Below are positions 2,931 to 16,718 of a stretch of 48,636 nt of DNA, in pieces. The DNA is from Planctomycetaceae bacterium (GTDB taxonomy: Bacteria > Planctomycetota > Planctomycetia > Planctomycetales > Planctomycetaceae), in assembly GCA_015485495.1 (NCBI GenBank), contig WFTL01000060.1:1-48636 (forward strand), in the 5' to 3' direction. The notes below the pieces were generated by a model. The model was not told the origin of the DNA, did no database searches, and saw only the letters and a list, made by a program, of their open reading frames with translations. Position 1 is the stretch's first letter. Every line of letters begins with the position of its first letter. Made by a program: the position numbers and the translations under genes.

Positions 2931-3785
2931 ATGACGTCCTCTTCGCTACCTCCTGACGAAACGTCGCCTGATCAGACGCTTCCCGAGGAGATTCTGCAGG
3001 AACTGCGAAAACAGGATCAGGTTCCGTTTTCCGTTTCTGAAGAACAGGATCGGGCCATTCTGACCCGGGCCCGTGAGGAACTGACCAGGCGTCTCACCGC
3101 ACCGTCTGTCGACAAAGAACGAAGTCCGTCCCGGCTGACAGCCGCTGTGGTGTTCGTCATTGCCGCCACGCTGGTGGCGATGGTGCTGGTTCGTCCTGGA
3201 ACAGACAGCGAACCGGCCGTGGTTCTGACGGGTCATCAGGTCGGCGAAGACCACGGGGCGGTTCCTGATCCTGAGATGGCAGAGGACAGAGGCCGCCCCC
3301 GCCCGCTGGTCGGTCCGTCGGACCATGTGAAACCCGCTCCTGGCCGGAAGGCAGACGCTGAGTCTCTGCGTGCCGGACAGCGGCGCGAAGCCGCGGCCGA
3401 CGTTCTTTCTTCGCAGCATTCTTCCCGGATGGAAATGCAGTCTGCGCCCGCGGCCCCGCCTGTGGCTTCGGAAGCGGCCGACGTGGCCGCCTCGCCGTCT
3501 CTGCGGGCGCGGCCGGGACAGCCGGCCCGGAAGTCTGTTCCGCCTGCTGATGCGGATGCTGTTTTTTCTCCTGCTGATGAACAGGCCCCTTCAGAGGTTT
3601 CCACCGCAGATGTGAACGGTGACGGCCGCGTGGATATTCTCGATGCCTTTCAACTGGCACGGCAGATGGAAGCCAATGGCCCTGCGCTCCTGAAAGACGA
3701 TCTGCGTCCGTTCGACAGGAACGGTGACGGAATCATCGATGAAACCGACGTCCGTCTGATTGCCACTGAAGCGGTGAAGCTGTGA
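2931..3785 (+). CDS. Single-pass membrane protein with C-terminal dockerin-like EF-hand pair
   Basis: 284 aa. The N-terminal ~68 residues are charged and helical (EILQELRKQDQ, then AILTRAREELTRRL), as in cytoplasmic tails of planctomycete anti-sigma-like proteins. One membrane span follows (about 70-88, LTAAVVFVIAATLVAMVLV). A long Pro/Ala-rich, probably disordered linker leads to residues 226-284, which hold two calcium loops, DVNGDGRVDILD and DRNGDGIIDETD, about 35 residues apart, the layout of a type I dockerin. The gene is divergent from the sigma factor and overlaps the next gene by one base (TGATG). The topology would put the dockerin-like module outside the membrane. An anti-sigma role is inference from position and topology only. 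Confidence 0.8.
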   Translation: MTSSSLPPDETSPDQTLPEEILQELRKQDQVPFSVSEEQDRAILTRAREELTRRLTAPSVDKERSPSRLTAAVVFVIAATLVAMVLVRPGTDSEPAVVLTGHQVGEDHGAVPDPEMAEDRGRPRPLVGPSDHVKPAPGRKADAESLRAGQRREAAADVLSSQHSSRMEMQSAPAAPPVASEAADVAASPSLRARPGQPARKSVPPADADAVFSPADEQAPSEVSTADVNGDGRVDILDAFQLARQMEANGPALLKDDLRPFDRNGDGIIDETDVRLIATEAVKL

Positions 3786-5056: not shown

Positions 5057-5596
5057 TGTTCGTTCCTGACTGACGGGGCTGTCTGCGGATGGCCTGTCTT
5101 CGTTTCGCCATTGTTCGTCGACCACGGATCAGGTCGATCCGACTCGGGCGTCCGCACATTTCGTGTGCCCGAGGCCGCAAGATGGCTTCAGCATATGCGT
5201 CCAGAACGTCATCGAAAAGCGGTCATGGTGATGGCCGTCCGGGAGATTGGTTGTCCGAGAGGGCATTGGTCGTGTTTATGGGGGCAGGCGGGACCGTGTT
5301 CGGTCGCTGTCGGACCATTCGGATAATGCGGATCTGTGGCGGCGGGGAATCGGGGTTCCGGGGACCGGAGAATTGAATCGGGGTCGGCGGAGGGCTAGCA
5401 TCGGCGGGGTTCCGGGAGCCGTCGAGTGTGCCGGAACAGGCCGGTCGGATTCCTCCCGACGAGTACGGGGTTCCGGCGGGCGTTCACTGTGGCGGTGTTT
5501 CGGCTGTCGTCTGTTCTGTCTTTCGGAAGGATCGGGATTTTGGTCGTTCGCGTTCCGAAGCGGAAGGATCGTCTTGTTTCCGGACGCGTTCCCGTG
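5057..5596. promoter_or_regulatory. Leader region of the ExbB/ExbD-kinase operon
   Basis: About 540 bp between the divergent DUF1499 and operon start codons, with no convincing gene. The plus strand is strikingly G-rich: GGGG tracts at 5344-5347, 5352-5355, 5360-5363 and 5380-5383, with loops of 4, 4 and 16 bases, could fold a G-quadruplex in the leader of the operon. No clear sigma-70 promoter is seen. An in-frame extension of the first operon gene to 5426 is open but has no supporting start signal. Confidence 0.35.
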
Positions 5597-6448
5597 ATGC
5601 GGGAAACTTCTTACGACCGGGCCAGTTCGCTGGGGCTGTCCGTCATCGTGCTTCTGGTGGGGCTCACACTGCTTCTGATCGCCATCTGGCTGAGCAATTT
5701 TCTGCCGACGGTGCATGTGGAACGCGTCGTGATGACGGCCGGCACGGGAGGATTCGAGGACGGCGCGGAGGATGAGACGCTGGATGTGGAATCGCCGGAA
5801 GATCTTTCGGACGACCCGTCTCTGGCGAACGATCAGCAGGAAGCGCAGCTTGAAGAAGTCGTCGACAACATGGTCAGCGTGTCGGCCACGGCGGCTTCGT
5901 TTCGGCTTCCTGCGGCGTTTCCGGATGAGGCATCCGGCGGGCTTCCGGGCAGCGCCGTGGGCACCGGCAGCCGGCCGCTGGGAAGCGGCGGCGGGCGGAC
6001 GGGCGGAACGCCCGAACACAAGCGCTGGGTGATCGAATTTGCGGAGAACCGCAGTCTCAGCCTGTACGCTCAGCAGCTCGACTTTTTCGGGATCGAGCTG
6101 GCGGCCGCGTTTCCGGACGGCCGCATCGTTTATGTGAAGAATCTGAGCGGTGATGTTCAGGTCCGCGAAGGGACGCTCAGTGATGAAGACCAGCGGATCT
6201 ATTTCAACTGGCAGGGAGCGGCCGAACGGGCGCAGGCGGATCGCGAACTGCTGACGCGGGCGGGGATTCCGAACCTGGACCAGGCCCGCATTCTGCATTT
6301 TTATCCTCCGGAGACCGAACAGATGCTGTTGCGGCTGGAGCAGGAATACGCCGATCGTCCGGTGGAGCGCATTCGCCGCACGAATTTCCGGGTGGAAGGC
6401 GAACCGGGAAACTTTCGTTTTGTTGTGAGATCCCAGAAGTATCGATAA
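5597..6448 (+). CDS. TonB-like single-pass membrane protein of the Exb operon
   Basis: 283 aa. The ATG at 5597 puts a membrane span at about residues 12-34 (LGLSVIVLLVGLTLLLIAIWL), with a short cytoplasmic N-terminus. The middle is acidic and then Gly-rich (about 50-135), and residues 140-283 form a folded, beta/alpha-looking domain (KRWVIEFAENRSLSLYAQQL to NFRFVVRSQKYR). This layout of anchor, extended linker and C-terminal domain is that of a TonB-type transducer, although no TonB signature (YP motif) is seen. It is the first gene of an operon with ExbB, two ExbDs and exported proteins. An upstream start at 5426 is possible but adds a basic stretch of no evident purpose. Transducer role is inferred. 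Confidence 0.72.
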   Translation: MRETSYDRASSLGLSVIVLLVGLTLLLIAIWLSNFLPTVHVERVVMTAGTGGFEDGAEDETLDVESPEDLSDDPSLANDQQEAQLEEVVDNMVSVSATAASFRLPAAFPDEASGGLPGSAVGTGSRPLGSGGGRTGGTPEHKRWVIEFAENRSLSLYAQQLDFFGIELAAAFPDGRIVYVKNLSGDVQVREGTLSDEDQRIYFNWQGAAERAQADRELLTRAGIPNLDQARILHFYPPETEQMLLRLEQEYADRPVERIRRTNFRVEGEPGNFRFVVRSQKYR

Positions 6449-6551: not shown

Positions 6552-7244
6552 ATGCTCGCGCAGATAGATTTTTCTCCGATTCTGACGGCTCTGGGATACG
6601 GCATTTATGCGGCCATGGCGATTTCCTTCGCTTATGGAATCTTCTCCGTCATCATGCTCATTCGCCGCGTGAAACAGAAATCCTTTCCCGGGCGGGAAGC
6701 CACGGAACTGTTCGTGGACGACATCGGAGAACAGCTCGAATCGGGAAACTTCGAGGGGGCTCTGGAAGTCTGCGACAGCCCCGAACTGTGGGCCCGCGCG
6801 GTGCCTCAGCTGATCACCGTGGCCATCGAAAACCGGAACAAACCGGTCCGCAAGATCCGTCAGATGCTGATGGAATTCTATGAACGGGAAATCGTGTCGG
6901 AGTTCGATGCCCGTCTGGCGTGGGTGAACACGATCATCAAATCGGCTCCGATGCTGGGCCTGCTGGGTACCGTGGTGGGAATGATCGGGGCGTTTCAGAA
7001 GATCGCCGGAGCGACGTCGGTGGATCCTTCGGAACTGGCGGAGGACATCAGTTTTGCGCTGCTGACGACGGCCTGCGGACTGTCGATCGCCATTCCGCTG
7101 GTCGTGCTGTCGAACATGGGGAACGTGCGGATCGCCCGTCTGCAGGATTCCGTGGAAGAGGTGGTGGGAATCGTGCTGGATGATCTGGAGGCCGCTCAGG
7201 TGCGGGCCGGTCTGCAGGGCACGGGAAAATCGCGGCGGAGCTGA
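6552..7244 (+). CDS. exbB: MotA/TolQ/ExbB proton channel family protein
   Basis: 230 aa, the usual length for ExbB/TolQ. Three membrane spans: about residues 13-37 near the N-terminus, then SAPMLGLLGTVVGMIGAF (around 136-155) and LLTTACGLSIAIPLVVLSNM (around 175-195). The last two carry the conserved LLGTVxGM and LxTTxxGL signatures with the threonines that line the proton pathway. A cytoplasmic helical region lies between spans 1 and 2. In known systems ExbB pentamers enclose an ExbD dimer and use proton motive force to act on a periplasmic partner. The next gene is ExbD after 39 bp, and the fused kinase-ExbD follows, so this single ExbB may serve two ExbD types. Confidence 0.93.
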   Translation: MLAQIDFSPILTALGYGIYAAMAISFAYGIFSVIMLIRRVKQKSFPGREATELFVDDIGEQLESGNFEGALEVCDSPELWARAVPQLITVAIENRNKPVRKIRQMLMEFYEREIVSEFDARLAWVNTIIKSAPMLGLLGTVVGMIGAFQKIAGATSVDPSELAEDISFALLTTACGLSIAIPLVVLSNMGNVRIARLQDSVEEVVGIVLDDLEAAQVRAGLQGTGKSRRS

Positions 7245-7283: not shown

Positions 7284-7721
7284 GTGCTGGCAGGTGGAAA
7301 ACGCAGTCTCATTCGCCGCCGTCGCAACACGGCGGACGGCGACCTGGACATCACGCCGATGATCGACGTGACATTTCTGCTGCTCATTTTTTTCATGGTG
7401 ACTTCCACCATGAAGGGGACGCCGGACAAGGACATTCCGGCAGCGGTGTCCGGAGAAAATGCGAATGCCACGGAGATGATCGATCTTTCGATTCTGCGGG
7501 CGAACGGACCGGAAGAAGGGACGGTACTGCTGGAGGATCGGGTGGTGAGTCTGGACGAGCTGCAGGCGGAGCTGACGGAGCGGGCCCGCGGTGGTCCGTT
7601 GAAGCTGATGATCTATGCGGAACGAGGCGTGAAGAATGGTTTCGTGGGGGATGTGGAATCCGTCATCGGGGACGTGGACGGAACGATCGAATACAAGTTC
7701 GCGGTGCTGCAGCTGAGATGA
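7284..7721 (+). CDS. exbD: ExbD/TolR biopolymer transport protein
   Basis: 145 aa. The basic cytoplasmic N-terminus leads into DLDITPMIDVTFLLLIFFMV, the ExbD/TolR membrane span with its proton-carrying Asp (in PMIDV). The periplasmic domain follows, ending in VIGDVDGTIEYKFAVLQLR. Length and layout are normal for the family. The span is nearly the same as that in the next gene (MDLTPMVDVTFLLLIFFMI), so the two ExbDs are paralogues. It ends only 10 bp before the open frame of the kinase fusion. Confidence 0.93.
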   Translation: MLAGGKRSLIRRRRNTADGDLDITPMIDVTFLLLIFFMVTSTMKGTPDKDIPAAVSGENANATEMIDLSILRANGPEEGTVLLEDRVVSLDELQAELTERARGGPLKLMIYAERGVKNGFVGDVESVIGDVDGTIEYKFAVLQLR

Positions 7722-7794: not shown

Positions 7795-9333
7795 ATGGCG
7801 GATCTGACGGGGAAGACTTTCGGCGAGTTTCGGCTGCTGAAGCACATCGGCAGCGGAGGCATGGCGGATGTTTATCTGGCCGAACAGACCACGCTGCAGC
7901 GTCCCGCGGCGGTGAAGATTCTGAAGCCGGAACTGATCGCGTCGTCCGCGGAGCGGGTGATCGCCCGGTTTCGTCAGGAGGCGATGGCGGCGGCGGCGCT
8001 GAGTCATCCGAACATCGTGCAGGTGTACACGATCGGCGAGCACGAAGGGTGCCACTTCATCGCTCAGGAATTCGTCAAAGGGAAGGATCTGGCGTCCATT
8101 CTGCGGGCTCACGGGCCACCGAAACTGGGTCCGGCTCTGCACGTGATTCGGCAGATTGCGTCGGCTCTGCAAGCATCCGGCGGAGCGGGAATCGTTCATC
8201 GGGACATCAAACCGGACAACGTTCTGGTGAACAAAAAAGGGGTTGTGAAGGTTGCCGATTTCGGACTGGCTCAGCTTCAGGAACGTCCGGATTCCGGAGC
8301 GCTCACCCGGGAAGGATCCACGCTGGGAACGCCGCTGTACATGAGTCCGGAGCAGGTGCGGGGAGAGACTCTGGACATCCGTTCCGACATCTATTCGCTG
8401 GGCATTTCCTGTTACGAAATCTTCTGCGGGCACACGCCGTTTGCCGGGACGACCGCAACCGGCATTGCCGTGCAGCACATCACCACGATGCCGCCGCCGC
8501 TGTCGGAAGAATGTCCCGATCTTCCGAAAACGGTGTGTCAGATGGTGCACTGCATGATCGCCAAGAATCCGGAAGACCGTTACCAGACTCCCGGTGATCT
8601 GCTGGCGGATCTGAAGGCCCTGCAGACCGCTTTGAAGCAGAAGCGGTCACTGGATCTGGTCCGTCTGCCGGTACTGACGAAGATGCTGAAAAAGCCGACG
8701 TCGGAAGAATCGATGGTGTCGGTGCTGGACGTTCCGAAGGTCAAAGCGGAATCTCCGGAAAAGAAGCGGACGACGGATTCGTTCGAATCCGTCGACGTGG
8801 TGCGTCCCTCGCAGGAGGCCGCTCGAAGGGCCCGGCGGGAGGCCGTGCTGATTCTGGGCGATCGCGAGTGGGTGTCGCTGCCGTCCTGGGAGGAAGATTC
8901 GGACGATGATCTGACGATGCGTCGTCGGCAGCCGGAATTCGAGGAAATGGATCTGACGCCGATGGTCGATGTGACTTTTCTGCTGCTGATTTTCTTCATG
9001 ATCACCGCCGCTTTCGATCTGCAGAAAAGCTTCGATGTCGCGGCGGCCCGATCGGAAGAAGCGGCCGATGCGATTGTGATCGAGGACACGGATCAGCTGG
9101 CGATCGAAGCGGAAATCGGTGCGGACAATCGGGTGTATGTGGATGACCGTTCCGGTGAGACGCTGGAAGAGGTGACGGAGATGCTCACGGCAGCGCGGCT
9201 GGGGAATGAAGATCTGGAACTGCATATCCGGATCGATCCGGATTCACGGCACGAGATGCGGATTCGGGTCAACGATGCGGGAACTCTGGCCGGATTCAGC
9301 CGGATTCGCAGTTCTCTGGAGACGGTGGACTGA
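7795..9333 (+). CDS. Ser/Thr protein kinase fused to an ExbD domain
   Basis: 512 aa from the ATG at 7795 (the frame is open from a GTG at 7732, adding 21 Ala/Gly/Ser-rich residues). Residues ~11-275 are a complete Hanks-type kinase: glycine loop GSGGMADVY (19-27), ATP lysine AVKIL (K41), catalytic loop HRDIKPDN (135-142), DFG (155-157), GTPLYMSPEQ (178-187) and SDIYSLGI (197-204). A polar linker (~280-380) leads to MDLTPMVDVTFLLLIFFMI (385-403), an ExbD membrane span with the proton-translocating Asp (D392), then a periplasmic ExbD domain to the C-terminus. ExbD N-termini are cytoplasmic, so the topology fits a cytoplasmic kinase. All key residues of both halves are intact. It lies between exbD and the propeller gene in a tight operon. 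The fusion is seen directly; signalling through the motor is inference. Confidence 0.92.
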   Translation: MADLTGKTFGEFRLLKHIGSGGMADVYLAEQTTLQRPAAVKILKPELIASSAERVIARFRQEAMAAAALSHPNIVQVYTIGEHEGCHFIAQEFVKGKDLASILRAHGPPKLGPALHVIRQIASALQASGGAGIVHRDIKPDNVLVNKKGVVKVADFGLAQLQERPDSGALTREGSTLGTPLYMSPEQVRGETLDIRSDIYSLGISCYEIFCGHTPFAGTTATGIAVQHITTMPPPLSEECPDLPKTVCQMVHCMIAKNPEDRYQTPGDLLADLKALQTALKQKRSLDLVRLPVLTKMLKKPTSEESMVSVLDVPKVKAESPEKKRTTDSFESVDVVRPSQEAARRARREAVLILGDREWVSLPSWEEDSDDDLTMRRRQPEFEEMDLTPMVDVTFLLLIFFMITAAFDLQKSFDVAAARSEEAADAIVIEDTDQLAIEAEIGADNRVYVDDRSGETLEEVTEMLTAARLGNEDLELHIRIDPDSRHEMRIRVNDAGTLAGFSRIRSSLETVD

Positions 9334-9420
9334 CTGGTATGACGGGGACGCCGGTCTTCGCGAAGTCCGCAGAGCATCAGTATGCGGCGGTTTCCGGTGT
9401 CATTCAGCGGGAAGGCGATT

Positions 9421-12400
9421 GTGGCAGGACACAGCAGCGACGGTGATTCGGAATTCGACGAAGCGGTCGAAAAGATTCATGAACGCGGTGCGCGGCAGCT
9501 TCGTGCGGGCCGCCTGACGCGGCTGAGCGACCGCATTGCCGGCGGGCCGCGTCGTCCCGGGGAGCAGAAGGTGACCAGGTCGCCGGTGCTGCTGACCATG
9601 CTGCTGGTTTCCACGGGGCTGGCGATCGTGGCGGCTGTGTTCTGGATTCTGGTGCTGCGGGAAACGGAAAAGACGCGATTCGAAAACGCCCTGCGGGCTC
9701 TGGATGAAGCGAAGTACAATGAGGCGGTGACGCAGTTCGAAGAATTTCTTCTGGTGCATCCGTCCGGAGAGTATTCGAACCGGGCCCGGATTCTGCTGCA
9801 CACGGCGAAGATTCGCCGCTACACCGATGCGTCGACGTTCAGTGTGGAATCGGTGGTCGCTGCCGAAAGGAGTCTCGAAGAGTTTTTTCGACACTGTCAG
9901 GACCTGCCTGAGTTTGCGGATGAGCGGGAACGGCTGATTCGCTGGGCGGAAAAGATCGCCCGGGCGGCCGCGGAAGTCGCGGTAAAGACGGCCAGCCAGG
10001 AAGCCCTCAATGCGAGCCAGTCGGCCTATGCCCGGCTGGACAGCCTGACCGGCTCCGGGGGACTGTCGGCCGAAGCGCGGGACCGGATTCTGAAGCTGCA
10101 CAGCCGGGCGTCGGCGGAGATCCTGAAGAAGGATCTGCTGAAGTCGTCTCTGGGCGATATTCAGAGACTGCTGGACGACAGCCGTCCTCTGGACGCTTTG
10201 CGGATCTACCAGGGACTGCTGGATCGGTATGAAGTGCTGCGGGAAGACCGCGGCTATGCCGATGTGATGGAACGTATTCTGGAGACGGAACAGTCTCTGG
10301 TGCACGTGGATGAGACGCCTCGGGATGCGGTGACATCGGAAGCGGACGAACATCCCCGCCCTGCCCTGTCGCTCAACCTGCGCACGGCCGCTTCGTCCGG
10401 CCTGGTGTCTCAGGATACCCTGGTGTTCGGATCGGGCGGAGATGCCGTTTTTGCTCTGGATGCGGAAACGGGGATGCCTGTCTGGAAACGGCCGCTGGGT
10501 GTGTCTGTGGACACAGCGCCGATTCTCGTGGAAGGACGCGTCCCGGCCGTGCTGCTGGTTCACGGCGGCCGCCACGAACTGATGCTTGTCAGCCAGGCCG
10601 ATCAGACGCTGTTGTGGCGTCAGTCGGTGGAGTCGGCCGTGACCGGTCCGCCGATTGTCATCGATCAGGATATCTATGTGACGACAGCAGCCGGTCAGCT
10701 CTGGCAGATCGCCGCCGGCAGCGGCCGGTCGGTGGCCCGGGTGCAGTTCAGCCAGCCCGTGACCGGTCCGCCGGCGCTGAGTCGGGACGGAGAATCGCTG
10801 GTGATACCTGGACGCCAGGCCTTCGTATACACGCTGGAACGCCGATCGCTGAAATGCCGGGCGGTTTCCTGGAGTCAGCATCGGGACGGGAGTGTGGTCA
10901 GTCCCATGCTGGCAATGGGGCATCTGTTTCTGCTGTGTGAAAACCGGTCGGAAGACTGCCTGCTGCGGGCGCTGGAAATGGATGAGCACGGTCGGCTGAG
11001 CGAACGGGAACGTCAGACCGTTCTGGGGCGGGTCATGGATCCGTGTCTGCTGCGGGGCGAACAGTTGTTCGTCCCGTCGACGCCCCAGAGAATCGCCGCT
11101 TTTCGGATTTCGGATCGCGCGGACAACGATGTGTTTTCTCTGATCGATACGAATCAGGTGGAAAATGCGGAACTGTCGAAGATTTTCCTGGTGTCCGGAG
11201 CCAGCGGGCATCTGTGGATGGCCAGTACCGCGCTGCGACGGTTCGAGGTGACGGAGCAGACAGTGGTGCTGGACAAGGCGGTCGTGGCGGAAGGGCAGCA
11301 TCTGTATCCGATTCAGGCGGACGACGACGATCTGCTGGTCACAACGCGACAGCCATGGTCATCTTCTGTGTTTTTCACACGGGTCAATCGAGAAACGATG
11401 ACGGGGCAGTGGCGGACCGCGCTGAGAACGAATCTGGTGGCAGCGGCACCGTCGGCATCCGGAAATTCGCTGGTGGCGGTCAGCGATTTCGGTGAAGTGT
11501 TTCGCGTGCCGCTTTCCGACATTGCCGAGGGAGGATTTCACACGCGTTCTCTGAGTCGTTTTCGGCTGCCGGACGATCTGAATGATCCGGTGGAAGGAAC
11601 CGTGCTGTCGGACGGCCGTCTGGCGGCGTGGTGTTACGGAGACGATGCGCGGATCTGGACGACCCGGCCGACCGGTCAGTTCGAACAGCTTTGGCGCCTT
11701 CCCGCGGAACCTCAGGCACGACCCGCACCGTTCGCCGGCGGACTGGCTGTCCCGCTGCCGGGCCGGATTCGCCTGACAGCCGTGCGGAATCGTGTGGAAG
11801 ACTATCAGGTGGAAGAACCGGGGGAAGCGGATGTGCACTGGCGGTTCGTGGTTCCGGTGGGCCAGGAGCAGCTTCTGGCAGTGCGGTCGGATGGTCAGGT
11901 GATCCGTCTGGAATACCGGACATCGCCGACGCGGCATCTGGCGGAAATCGGGATCGCCCGGCTGCCGGGCGACATCGAACTGATTCCCGCAGCCACGCAG
12001 GAGCTGATCTGTGTGGCCACATCCGACGGCCGCCTGGTTCTGCTGGGGGCAGACGGGCTGGAAAGGATTCAGGAACGGAGTGTGGACGGAGGCATCGTGG
12101 GGGGGCCGTTCGTTTCCGGAAACCGCGTGTTCGTCATCGCTGCGGACGATCGGGTGTGCGTGTATTCTCTGGATGAGCGGCTGGAGGAAACCGGGGTGTT
12201 TGCATCGCCCGGAGGCCGACTGACGGATGCTCCGCTGCCACTGCCGGACGGAGGGTTCCTGGCGGTGTTCCAGGGAGGGAGCGTGGTGCATCTGGACGAA
12301 CAGGGACAGCCGACCGGCCGAACCGATCATCTCGGACAGCCCCTGCAGTCCGGGCCGATTCGAACAGGAGACGCGGCTGTGGTGGTGGCTGAAGACGGCA

Positions 12401-12444
12401 GTCTGTTCCTGTGGAACGATCTGGCGGAAGGACAGGACGAGTAA
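9421..12444 (+). CDS. Membrane-anchored helical-repeat/PQQ-like beta-propeller protein
   Basis: 1007 aa from the GTG at 9421, which has GGGAAGG ahead of it; an ATG at 9382 in the same frame lacks a ribosome site and would add 13 residues. A basic cytoplasmic tail precedes one membrane span (about 55-79). Residues ~80-310 are helical and TPR-like (ALDEAKYNEAVTQFEEFLLVHPSGEYSNRA is one such unit in two parts). From ~325 to the end come repeated PQQ-like blades with phrases such as VFALDAETGMPVWKR and LVLLGADG, resembling BamB-type propellers. No quinone-binding catalytic residues can be assigned, so it is probably a scaffold. The stop is directly followed by the next start (TAAATG), indicating coupling. 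Confidence 0.82.
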   Translation: MAGHSSDGDSEFDEAVEKIHERGARQLRAGRLTRLSDRIAGGPRRPGEQKVTRSPVLLTMLLVSTGLAIVAAVFWILVLRETEKTRFENALRALDEAKYNEAVTQFEEFLLVHPSGEYSNRARILLHTAKIRRYTDASTFSVESVVAAERSLEEFFRHCQDLPEFADERERLIRWAEKIARAAAEVAVKTASQEALNASQSAYARLDSLTGSGGLSAEARDRILKLHSRASAEILKKDLLKSSLGDIQRLLDDSRPLDALRIYQGLLDRYEVLREDRGYADVMERILETEQSLVHVDETPRDAVTSEADEHPRPALSLNLRTAASSGLVSQDTLVFGSGGDAVFALDAETGMPVWKRPLGVSVDTAPILVEGRVPAVLLVHGGRHELMLVSQADQTLLWRQSVESAVTGPPIVIDQDIYVTTAAGQLWQIAAGSGRSVARVQFSQPVTGPPALSRDGESLVIPGRQAFVYTLERRSLKCRAVSWSQHRDGSVVSPMLAMGHLFLLCENRSEDCLLRALEMDEHGRLSERERQTVLGRVMDPCLLRGEQLFVPSTPQRIAAFRISDRADNDVFSLIDTNQVENAELSKIFLVSGASGHLWMASTALRRFEVTEQTVVLDKAVVAEGQHLYPIQADDDDLLVTTRQPWSSSVFFTRVNRETMTGQWRTALRTNLVAAAPSASGNSLVAVSDFGEVFRVPLSDIAEGGFHTRSLSRFRLPDDLNDPVEGTVLSDGRLAAWCYGDDARIWTTRPTGQFEQLWRLPAEPQARPAPFAGGLAVPLPGRIRLTAVRNRVEDYQVEEPGEADVHWRFVVPVGQEQLLAVRSDGQVIRLEYRTSPTRHLAEIGIARLPGDIELIPAATQELICVATSDGRLVLLGADGLERIQERSVDGGIVGGPFVSGNRVFVIAADDRVCVYSLDERLEETGVFASPGGRLTDAPLPLPDGGFLAVFQGGSVVHLDEQGQPTGRTDHLGQPLQSGPIRTGDAAVVVAEDGSLFLWNDLAEGQDE

Positions 12445-15141
12445 ATGCGACGTTCTGTCGTGAGTCGATGTTTTCTCACATTCCGCAGCATCCGGGACGG
12501 TTCTGTGCCTGCGATGCTTCAGACGGTCTGTCCACTGCAGACCAGGTTCCCGACAAAGCGGCGGACTGCCGGCAGCCGACTGTGGTGTGTTCTGCTGCTG
12601 GGGGGGCTGCTGATGTCCGCATCCGCCGGTCTGGCGCAGGAAGAGCCGGTCGGGTCGGAATCGGAGGCAACGGAGAACGGGTCAACGGAGGACCCTCAGG
12701 ACGTTGATCGGGATGTGCTGCCGAAGCTGGAGGAGATGCAGCGGCCGCCGTCTTACGACGAACTGATCGATGCGGAACCATTCGACTGGATCGTGCTGAG
12801 AGCATCCGGTCAGGTGATCGTCTGTGAACCGATGGAGCCTCGGCCGGACACTCTGAAGAAGATTCAGGACGAGCATGACGCTCTGGCCGTTCGCCGGCGG
12901 CGGACCCGGGAAGAAAACGCCCGCCTGTCCGAGCTGCGTCTTCCGCAGATCTATCTGCCGGGCGATCCTCAGGCGTATCGCATTCGGCTGGACAGCATTG
13001 ATCAGATCATCGGCATTGAACAGCTCATGCTGGAACGCGCGGCTCTGCTGATCGAAGAGGAAGATTTCGTGCGGGCCTATGACCTGATCGTCCGGGTTCA
13101 GGAACTTGTTCCGGGGTGGGACGCTGCCGAACAGCAGTACATCGCTTTGCTCATTGCCGAAGCAGAATTTCATCAGCGGCACAATCGTCCGTATGCGGGA
13201 CTGGCTCTGCTGGAACAGGTGTACGATCTGCAGGACGACCACCCGCGTCTGCCCGAACTGCTGAAATCGCTGTATGATCCGCTCATTGCCCAGGCCATCG
13301 AGCAGCAGGATTATTCCCGGGCCCGAGGGCTGCTGACCCGCTGGTCGGACACCTTTCCCCGGGTCGCGGACAACGATCACTGGCGAAAAACGCTGCAGGA
13401 CATTGCCGATCGAACGCTGGCGGAAGCGGCGTCACTGCAGCGCGGCGGGCGTCTGCGGGAGGCAGCGGTGCGGGCCCGGGAAGCGGGGCGCATCTGGGAC
13501 CTGCCCCGGCAGCGGCGCAATGTGCTGGGGGAGATCGTGGCCCGGTATCAGATTGTCCGGGTCGGCGTGGAGTCTCTGGATGGAGATCGTCCGTTTCCCG
13601 TGCCGCTGCCGCCGGTCCGTCGACATCGGGAGCTGACAGAGGAGCCGTTGTTTTCGGTGGATCGCTTCCAGGAAGTGACGTATTACCGGTCGGCGTTCAT
13701 CGAAGACTGGGATCCTCAGGACCTCGGCCGGTCGGTGACGTTTCATCTGCGCACCAGCCGCCCCTGGTGGCATCCTCAGCCCCTCATCAAAGCCGGTCAG
13801 ATCGCTGACGCTCTGTCGCGACGGCTGGATCCGGACAGCGATGAGTACGACCCGCGTCTGGCGTCGTTCGTGGCCGGTTTTACGGTGAAATCGCCGACCC
13901 GTCTGGAAGTCCGGTTTTCGCGGGTTCCGCTGAGTCTGGCGGCCCTGTTTCGCATGCTGATTCCGGCGGCTGTCGATGAGGACGGCAGCGAAGGAAATCC
14001 GGACGCCTCGGCTGCCGGTTCGCCTGTCGTGGGAGGATTTCGGCTGCGGGAATCCGGCGATGCCGAACGGTCCTATGTTCGGCGGATTCCTGAACCGGAC
14101 GGAATGAATCTGCTGCAGTATCACGTGGCGGAGATTGTGGAAGAACCGTTCGAAAACCGGGATGACATGATTCGCGCCTGGCGCCGCGGCCGGATCGATG
14201 TGATCGCGTCTGTACGGCCGTGGGAAGTCGATCCGCTGCGGTCTTCGGAAAACGAGTCGGGGTTTGTGCAGCAGCAGGCCATCCCGGCCAGTCATGTGAT
14301 CGTGTTCAATCCTCAGTCGGATGTGCTTCGCCATCCGCAGCTTCGGCGGGCATTGTCGCTGTCTGTGCCGCGGGAGGAGATTCTGAAACGGATCGTCCTG
14401 CGGGATGACCGCGGTCGGCATGGGCGGGTCACCGGATCCGTCTGGCCGGCCAGCAGCTATGCATCCGACCCTCGGGGACAGGTGGTCGAATACAATCCCT
14501 ATCTGGCCTTTGCCCTCAGGTTCGCCGCTCTGGAACGCCTTCGGATCCCGGTGCGGCAGAAGCTGGTGGCGGCGGCTCGGGAACAGGTTCTGAAGTCCGG
14601 TGGAGAATGGGATGAAACCGTCTGGCGCGAACAGAACCGGGCTCTGCTGGAAGAAGCGACTGCCGACATTCAGCTTCCGCAGCTGACGCTGCTGTGCGAA
14701 CCGGATCCGGTGATGGAAGCCGCGGCGGAGACGATGGTGGATCTGTGGACCCGAATCGGCATTCCCGTCGTCCTGAAAGTGCCCCAGGCATCGGACACGG
14801 ACATTCCGGACTGGGACCTGATGTATCGCCGGGTGTGGATGCAGGAACCGCTGCTGGACGTGTGGTCGGTGCTGCTGACCGACCACACGCTGGATGTGAA
14901 CCTGCTGGAACCGTTTCCGGACTGGTTTCGTCAGGATCTGACACTCCTGGACTTCGTCGGCAGCTTTCGTCTGGCCCGCGATCAGCTTTTTCGAATGCAG
15001 CGCAACATGGCCGCTCAGGCTTTTCTCATTCCCCTGTGGGAAGTGGATCAGTTCACGGCGTTCCGCGGACAGGTGAGCGGGTATTCTGAACGTCCTGTGT
15101 CCGTTTACGACCGTGTGTCGCGGTGGGTGGTGAAGCCGTGA
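12445..15141 (+). CDS. Exported protein with family-5 solute-binding domain
   Basis: 898 aa. A hydrophobic segment at about residues 46-62 (LWCVLLLGGLLMSASAG) ending in LAQEE is a signal peptide; an ATG at 12514 would give it a more usual length. Residues ~75-370 are helical with TPR-like character. From ~385 onward the sequence resembles the SBP_bac_5 (DppA/OppA) fold: SVTFHLRTSRPWWHPQPLIKA-type opening, LRHPQLRRALSLSVPREEIL in the hinge region, and PDWDLMYRRVWMQEPLLDVW near the end. DppA-like proteins are normally 500-600 aa and encoded beside permeases; here none is visible, and the partners are ExbB/ExbD components. It abuts the previous gene and overlaps the next by 4 bp. Ligand unknown. 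Confidence 0.8.
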   Translation: MRRSVVSRCFLTFRSIRDGSVPAMLQTVCPLQTRFPTKRRTAGSRLWCVLLLGGLLMSASAGLAQEEPVGSESEATENGSTEDPQDVDRDVLPKLEEMQRPPSYDELIDAEPFDWIVLRASGQVIVCEPMEPRPDTLKKIQDEHDALAVRRRRTREENARLSELRLPQIYLPGDPQAYRIRLDSIDQIIGIEQLMLERAALLIEEEDFVRAYDLIVRVQELVPGWDAAEQQYIALLIAEAEFHQRHNRPYAGLALLEQVYDLQDDHPRLPELLKSLYDPLIAQAIEQQDYSRARGLLTRWSDTFPRVADNDHWRKTLQDIADRTLAEAASLQRGGRLREAAVRAREAGRIWDLPRQRRNVLGEIVARYQIVRVGVESLDGDRPFPVPLPPVRRHRELTEEPLFSVDRFQEVTYYRSAFIEDWDPQDLGRSVTFHLRTSRPWWHPQPLIKAGQIADALSRRLDPDSDEYDPRLASFVAGFTVKSPTRLEVRFSRVPLSLAALFRMLIPAAVDEDGSEGNPDASAAGSPVVGGFRLRESGDAERSYVRRIPEPDGMNLLQYHVAEIVEEPFENRDDMIRAWRRGRIDVIASVRPWEVDPLRSSENESGFVQQQAIPASHVIVFNPQSDVLRHPQLRRALSLSVPREEILKRIVLRDDRGRHGRVTGSVWPASSYASDPRGQVVEYNPYLAFALRFAALERLRIPVRQKLVAAAREQVLKSGGEWDETVWREQNRALLEEATADIQLPQLTLLCEPDPVMEAAAETMVDLWTRIGIPVVLKVPQASDTDIPDWDLMYRRVWMQEPLLDVWSVLLTDHTLDVNLLEPFPDWFRQDLTLLDFVGSFRLARDQLFRMQRNMAAQAFLIPLWEVDQFTAFRGQVSGYSERPVSVYDRVSRWVVKP

Positions 15142-16718
15142 GAAACGCGTGCGGAAAAATGTTTCGGAACGTCTTCGGTCTGGGCGGCCGCATGCGGCCG
15201 GGAAGGCATCTGGTGACGGGCGTGATTGCCGGACTTGTGTGTGTCGTGCCGGCGGTGCGGGCGGAACCGGGCTCTCAGGATGATTCTCCGCCGCGACCGT
15301 TTTCGCTGCGTCCCTATCGAGTGCACGTTGTGGTGTCCGTGACAGGGGCCGCGGGCGGGCGGCCGATCGATGCGGACGCCGTTCGGGCGGGTGTGCACGA
15401 AAGCCTGCTTCGCATGTATGGGCGCATGTGGCAGGTCCAGGTGACCGCTCCGGCATGGCGGCTGCCGGGAACGCCGGAACAGATCAGGCATCTGACGGTG
15501 GACGATCTGGTCCGTCGCCTGCCGTCGGACGACTGGGAAGAACGTTTTCCGGAACAGGACATGGACAAGGTTGTGTTTGTCGCTGTGACATCGCAGACAG
15601 CGGGGTACGAAATCGTCTGCCGCGAGTTCGACACGCGGATGCACGATCTGTCGCCGGTGCATGCTGCTGTCGTTCCTGAAGACCGGGAGATCGGACCGGT
15701 GGCAGCCGGTCTGGTTCGGGAGGTCTTTCGCCCGGTTCTCCGCTTTGTGCGGCGTTACAGCGACGATGACGACCAGGAATACTTTGAACTGCAGGCACAG
15801 GCCGGGGAACTGCCGCCTCCGGATCCGGCTGCCGAACAGGTGCGGGCGGGCGACATCCTGCGGCCGTTTCTTCGCCGGATGAAGCGGCGGGATCCGACTC
15901 GGCTGCGTCTGCTGAAACGCCTGCCGCTGACGTACATTCGAGTGACGGATGTGGATCTGGATGTGATTCGCGGCCGCACCACCGGCATCCTGCTGACACA
16001 CACGCCGGCGGCACCGTTCGGACTGCGGGGACGCGGACTGCAGCAACTGGCCCTGCGTCAGCGGCCGGTGGCTTCGTCCAGCCGGCTGCGTCTGGTCCAG
16101 CGATCGCGGGAACAGAAACCGCTGATCTGCCAGCGGGTGCGCGTTGCCTGGAAGCTGCGCAGCCGGGACGAGGACCAGCGGCCTCAGTTGCCTTTGCTGA
16201 GCGATCGCAACGGCGAAATCGAGATTCCGGCGGATCCCGATTTTCCCACGCTGTGGATCTACGTGTACAGCGGCAGCAGGACACTGGCCCGGGTGCCGTA
16301 TGCGCCGGGGCTGGTGCCGGCGGAGACCGTGCTGCTTCCGGACGATTCCATTCGGCTGAGCGTGGAAGGCGATCTGAAGCTGCTGCAGGATGAACTGGTG
16401 GATGCCGTGGCCCTGCGGGAAGTTCAGATGAGCCTGGCCCGAAAGGCACTGGAAGAAAACCGTCCGGAAGACGTCCGCCATCATCTGGATACCTATTTTC
16501 GGCTGCCCGGGCAGGAACACTTCCAGGACGCATTGGCGCTGATTCGTGTGTCGGCGGTGCGCCGTGCCCAGGCATCCGGAAACCGCTTTGCACAGCGGGA
16601 TGTCGAAAAACTGTGCGATCAGATGGAAGAGACGCTCAGCGAGTTCTTCAGTGACCAGCGGCGGGCGCAGCGGATGGCGGAAATCAACGAACTGCGCGTG
16701 CGAGCCGGCCTGGAATGA
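15138..16718 (+). CDS. Exported protein of unknown function, last gene of Exb operon
   Basis: 526 aa from the GTG at 15138, whose GTGA overlaps the upstream stop; another GTG at 15123 is possible. The N-terminus carries a signal peptide (HLVTGVIAGLVCVVPAVRAEP). The mature protein begins with a strand-rich segment (PYRVHVVVSVTGA) and an ADAVRAGVHESLLRMYG helix, then a region near residue 260-400 that looks like a beta-sandwich with a PLLSDRNGEIEIP turn, and ends in a helical domain (about 420-526). I recognise no family. Its coupling to the solute-binding-domain gene implies that the two act together. Confidence 0.78.
   Translation: MRNACGKMFRNVFGLGGRMRPGRHLVTGVIAGLVCVVPAVRAEPGSQDDSPPRPFSLRPYRVHVVVSVTGAAGGRPIDADAVRAGVHESLLRMYGRMWQVQVTAPAWRLPGTPEQIRHLTVDDLVRRLPSDDWEERFPEQDMDKVVFVAVTSQTAGYEIVCREFDTRMHDLSPVHAAVVPEDREIGPVAAGLVREVFRPVLRFVRRYSDDDDQEYFELQAQAGELPPPDPAAEQVRAGDILRPFLRRMKRRDPTRLRLLKRLPLTYIRVTDVDLDVIRGRTTGILLTHTPAAPFGLRGRGLQQLALRQRPVASSSRLRLVQRSREQKPLICQRVRVAWKLRSRDEDQRPQLPLLSDRNGEIEIPADPDFPTLWIYVYSGSRTLARVPYAPGLVPAETVLLPDDSIRLSVEGDLKLLQDELVDAVALREVQMSLARKALEENRPEDVRHHLDTYFRLPGQEHFQDALALIRVSAVRRAQASGNRFAQRDVEKLCDQMEETLSEFFSDQRRAQRMAEINELRVRAGLE

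Follow-up and report, generated by a model that had tools for sequence, protein, structure and literature searches.

This locus raises two linked questions: does one gene truly join a Hanks-type Ser/Thr kinase to an ExbD proton-channel subunit, and what would a kinase do in that position? The sensor domains known from bacterial Ser/Thr kinases are for the most part passive and extracellular. With a kinase covalently attached to a proton-carrying subunit, motor-kinase coupling would become directly testable, that is, whether envelope motors report their work to phosphorylation or are throttled by it. The gene is the fourth of seven tightly packed plus-strand genes (Table 1) in a 48,636-nucleotide stretch of DNA from a Planctomycetaceae bacterium (contig WFTL01000060.1), the whole of which is called the window below.

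Table 1. Coordinates in the window of the seven operon genes and of the parts of the fusion gene
Feature	Coordinates	Strand	Evidence
Operon gene 1: N-terminal TM helix, acidic disordered linker, C-terminal alpha/beta domain	5597..6448	+	
ExbB/TolQ/MotA-type proton channel subunit	6552..7244	+	PF01618, 85.2 bits
ExbD1, plain ExbD/TolR subunit	7284..7721	+	PF02472, 57.4 bits
Kinase-ExbD2 fusion, 512 aa	7795..9333	+	Open translation, Pfam, alignment
PknB-type kinase domain, residues 13-264	7831..8586	+	PF00069, 161.8 bits; catalytic residues intact
Linker, residues 283-385	8641..8949	+	Mostly disordered (model), alignment, omega
ExbD domain, residues 382-504, TM helix and pore Asp D392	8938..9306	+	PF02472, 69.2 bits
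TM + TPR + PQQ-type beta-propeller protein	9382..12444	+	PF13360, 79.4 bits
Solute-binding protein family 5-like protein, long N-terminal region	12445..15141	+	PF00496, 71.5 bits
Operon gene 7, probably exported, synteny-conserved	15123..16718	+	Synteny

Translation of the fusion gene gave a single stop-free frame. A mechanical ORF call opens it at a GTG (7732); the ATG at 7795, where the first-pass annotation had placed the start, is the better choice because the other fusions have their start Met at the aligned position. Both domain matches obtained with hmmscan against Pfam exceeded their cut-offs (31.7 bits for Pkinase and 25.4 bits for ExbD). The glycine loop, VAIK Lys, alpha-C Glu, HRD, DFG and APE/SPE motifs are all present in the kinase. 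In an alignment of 14 fusions from five genera, K41, E62, H135-R136-D137, N142, D155-F156-G157, S184-P185-E186 and R262 were invariant, as was the ExbD pore residue D392, in accordance with the claim of the first-pass annotation that both the kinase and the ExbD domain are complete. The linker opens with an R-S-L-D-L motif kept among fusions and ends in an acidic patch.

Sequences nearest to the kinase part in the PDB were StkP and PknB, with 38% identity to the kinase domain of Mycobacterium tuberculosis PknB, and Foldseek matched the modelled kinase to PknB (3orm, TM(target) 0.88). In the single-chain model of the fusion, built from an alignment of 13 sequences (mean pLDDT 69), the kinase part and the C-terminal ExbD domain were folded and the linker between them was disordered, with pLDDT below 50 at residues 301-343 and 345-394 and low-confidence stretches spread over residues 301-434. 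We regard it as practically certain that the gene comprises an intact kinase, a linker and a complete ExbD. ExbD2, as we call the ExbD of the fusion, looks like a working channel subunit, rather than a mere anchor, because its pore residues and the catalytic residues of the kinase are both fully conserved.

Conservation was surveyed by searching 170 genomes of Planctomycetaceae with the ExbD half of the protein (residues 299-512). In about 30 of the 170, the ExbD half lay within an open frame of 500-576 aa; the carriers belong to six genera (g1, g6, g15, g40, g41 and g65) and include a genome assembled as a single contig of 8.9 Mb (G052). Mapped fusion loci share one slot for the gene, that of ExbD2 in the order ExbB-ExbD1-ExbD2-PQQ-SBP5, and the kinase was in frame with ExbD at the loci inspected in full, G143 excepted. 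In that draft MAG (L094, 8938-10454) a frame break in the linker leaves kinase and ExbD in different frames; the sequence may be in error here, or the fusion may be naturally split. Another draft MAG, from a distant genus (G016; L041, 9661-11256), carries a kinase-ExbD2 gene whose frame is broken in the glycine loop; it may be a second fusion of independent origin or a defective kinase.

These breaks in two MAGs are what speaks for an artefact, either a chimeric gene produced by mis-assembly or adjacent genes joined through a frameshift. Against this stands the same junction in about 30 independent assemblies, the single-contig genome among them, and we consider an artefact extremely improbable. 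That the kinase is merely adjacent to ExbD and was wrongly joined to it was ruled out by the single frame and the alignment. Between residues 300 and 385, where a stop or frameshift would have undone the fusion, the frame was open in those assemblies, so the in-frame fusion first read from the letters of the window stands. Among pairs of relatives without saturation of synonymous change, dN/dS ranged over 0.015-0.12 for the kinase part, 0.055-0.09 for the ExbD part and 0.39-0.56 for the linker; the kinase and ExbD parts are under purifying selection.

The first-pass annotation had placed the kinase on an ExbD motor. The fusion is real, and the operon does provide an ExbB partner, conserved in synteny; the fused protein is, however, the second of two ExbDs. 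Scores against the Ton/Tol equivalog models of NCBIfam (ExbB, ExbD, TolQ and TolR) all fell far under their cut-offs. Judging from its domain matches, the operon also encodes periplasmic proteins of ligand-binding-like type, and its seventh gene gave no match in a Pfam scan. No phosphatase gene was detected among the flanking ORFs scanned, and promoter and terminator signals were not above chance. Two further loci with unlike ExbD gene pairs occur in the genome of the window (G000 contigs 132 and 164; L043 and L042), and the window also encodes a dockerin-like domain protein (2931-3785) close to a minus-strand ECF sigma factor gene (1954-2556).

The start of gene 1 was chosen by alignment with relatives, an in-frame GTG being present upstream at 5426. 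Its product has a TonB/TolA-like topology, with a TM helix at residues 5-34 and low model confidence at residues 37-142, and matched nothing in Pfam or NCBIfam. A TonB homologue was nevertheless ruled out: the model had no fold match in the PDB, and the family alignment showed no conserved His in the TM helix, such as TonB/TolA have in their SHLS motif. The protein is a candidate new force transducer.

The same gene order was found in most other genera of the family. In place of a kinase, every non-fusion ExbD2 examined there has an N-terminal zinc ribbon (CxxC...CxxC). Read from these loci, the kinase came in by a lineage-specific exchange of modules within an older operon, in which it replaced the zinc ribbon. 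The earlier view of the kinase as part of the motor therefore needs qualification: the kinase is present in the operon, but it is a lineage-specific replacement outside the core of the machine, because the motor operon is conserved more widely without it.

The PQQ protein also differs between the two groups. In zinc-ribbon relatives it usually opens with an FHA domain (PF00498, 32-35 bits against a cut-off of 20.7), and an HMM built from the domains of 20 relatives recognised the domain in 32 of the 39 zinc-ribbon genomes and in none of the 21 fusion genomes (the split G143 was taken as a fusion and one partial protein was left out). Pfam likewise gave no FHA match in the PQQ proteins of the fusion clade that were scanned, that of the window included. 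The exchange of zinc ribbon for kinase and the absence of FHA need not be linked, since FHA is missing from seven zinc-ribbon genomes as well. Moreover, the fusions are essentially one lineage, so the kinase and the lack of FHA are associated through a single event, or two at the most, which is too few for statistical significance. The relatives' FHA domains keep Gly, His, Arg and Asn-Gly, with Gly-Arg in about one third and the Ser before His replaced; they may not read phosphorylation, because the full phosphothreonine-binding set is incomplete. A lost phospho-reader is accordingly a weak interpretation of these sequences. At the FHA-like binding site of the relatives (L085-L093, L105-L144), HCR stands where SRxHA is canonical.

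In the genomes searched outside the family, no fusion turned up. Across 397 genomes of the class, full-length matches to a composite profile fell only in Planctomycetaceae among the matches listed, so that weaker fusions may have escaped notice. An ExbD2 profile run against two further sets, 95 genomes from another family and a phylum-wide sample of 294, retrieved several long open frames; those inspected were rejected as fusions, since they contained zinc ribbons or GYF-like modules or had no recognised ExbD start. None of these inspected frames held a kinase, and tblastn with the kinase matched just an unrelated ORF in L246. In the phylum sample, every one of the 21 members of the class had the gene-1 family, which occurred in no class besides. 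On this basis the envelope machine seems to extend through the whole class, and the kinase to have been added late. In another planctomycete family (L229, L231, L236 and L241) the N-terminal module of ExbD is GYF-like by eye (VYKGVPY...W), and cytosolic modules added to ExbD may be common among planctomycetes in general.

A tree of 75 kinase domains grouped the 23 main fused kinases in a single, fully supported clade. Their nearest group consisted of kinase-TM-TPR kinases of PknB type from the same fusion-bearing genomes (support 99; joint node 86), and a receptor-type kinase-TM-TPR gene is still present in the genome of the window (G000 contig 78). Because the fused kinases are nearest to these ordinary TPR-type kinases of the same genomes, a resident receptor kinase was probably duplicated and its catalytic domain then fused to ExbD2. 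The PQQ-protein tree placed G016 outside the main clade (86/83), while AU tests did not reject one clade including G016 (p = 0.83 and 0.70); two origins of the fusion, in the main clade and in G016, are possible.

What the kinase does can be approached from the architecture of such motors. In ExbB-ExbD and MotAB motors, two TM helices of the ExbD type lie inside a pentamer of the ExbB type, with their N-termini in the cytoplasm, and the N-terminus of ExbD/TolR proteins is cytoplasmic in general, which makes the topology proposed in the first-pass annotation a sensible one. The kinase is the N-terminal cytoplasmic module of the second ExbD in a conserved planctomycete envelope motor. ExbD2 would pair with ExbD1 or with itself inside the ExbB pentamer, its TM helix in the pore, and a flexible tether of ~100 residues would hold one or two kinase domains at the motor's cytoplasmic mouth. 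Potential targets within reach include the ExbB loop and the N-terminal tails of ExbD1, the TM-PQQ protein and the gene-1 protein, and phosphorylation of these nearby parts would tune motor assembly or engagement. In relatives, the adapter role may fall to the zinc ribbon and the FHA domain. Local phosphorylation of the machine's own cytoplasmic parts is our tentative choice for the main function, at somewhat short of an even chance. Such phosphorylation is not essential to the machine, because most relatives have the operon without the kinase; as judged from these comparisons, the kinase is an added regulatory part of a motor that has no kinase in most relatives.

Control may instead run from motor to kinase, with proton flow, load or periplasmic engagement shifting the position or pairing of ExbD2, which would draw kinase domains together or apart and so let the kinase signal to the cell. 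The cytoplasmic N-terminus of ExbD suits this arrangement, and dimerisation is the usual means of control in PknB-type kinases. It is also favoured by the receptor-type nature of the nearest kinase, whose TM-TPR part has in effect been swapped for ExbD, and by the ligand-binding-like periplasmic proteins of the operon. However, a disordered, fast-evolving linker of ~100 residues would be a poor lever for small motions, and we consider this direction of control rather unlikely. A stronger form, in which rotation, load or proton flow through ExbB-ExbD1-ExbD2 directly switches the kinase, and which may have evolved twice, has a low probability in our estimate; if true, the state of an envelope motor would be reported as protein phosphorylation. 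Equally doubtful is that ExbD just positions the kinase at the motor or membrane, with no regulation either way, much as the zinc ribbon may position another protein. The disorder of the linker and the presence of other cytosolic modules at the same spot in relatives (the zinc ribbon and, by eye in another family, the GYF-like module) are consistent with passive anchoring, but full conservation of the catalytic and pore residues across fusions argues against it. We judge local phosphorylation to rank above motor-to-kinase signalling, and the latter above passive anchoring.

No description of a kinase-ExbD fusion was found in the open-access literature, in keeping with the initial impression that an ExbD-bearing kinase is undescribed. 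Receptor kinases of the PknB/StkP type share with the fusion an N-terminal cytoplasmic catalytic domain, one TM helix and an extracytoplasmic C-terminal domain. They differ in carrying PASTA, propeller or TPR domains where the TM and C-terminal part of the fusion is ExbD; no PASTA repeats were matched in the fusion, and the PASTA-kinase model NF033483 scored 323 bits against a cut-off of 450. With the ExbD/TolR family of the Ton and Tol motors, the fusion has in common the TM helix with its pore Asp, the periplasmic domain and the proximity of an ExbB and a second ExbD gene. Unlike these proteins it has a 381-residue cytoplasmic extension, and it falls below every equivalog cut-off for Ton/Tol proper.

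In the PVC group, tolQ with two unlike tolR genes, together with TPR and vWA force transducers, has been proposed to form novel PMF-driven transducers, and kinases go unmentioned there (PMC12204202). The present operon resembles those sets in its TolQ-like gene, heterologous TolR-like pair and TPR gene (PMC12204202), whereas the gene-1 candidate has no detected vWA domain and lacks the TM His of the SHLS motif. The closest counterpart is the Planctomycetaceae ExbB-ExbD1-zinc-ribbon-ExbD2-FHA/TPR/PQQ-SBP5 operon, for which no name was found in the open-access literature. It has the same seven-gene order and orthologous genes, and differs in having a zinc ribbon for the kinase and, usually, a PQQ protein with an FHA-like N-terminus. 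The operon of the window also marks an apparently class-wide, uncharacterised planctomycete envelope machine with exchangeable cytoplasmic modules (zinc ribbon, FHA-like, kinase). Set beside all these systems, the novelty lies in the membrane module that the Hanks kinase has acquired and, in the same protein, in the regulatory module that the ExbD motor has acquired.
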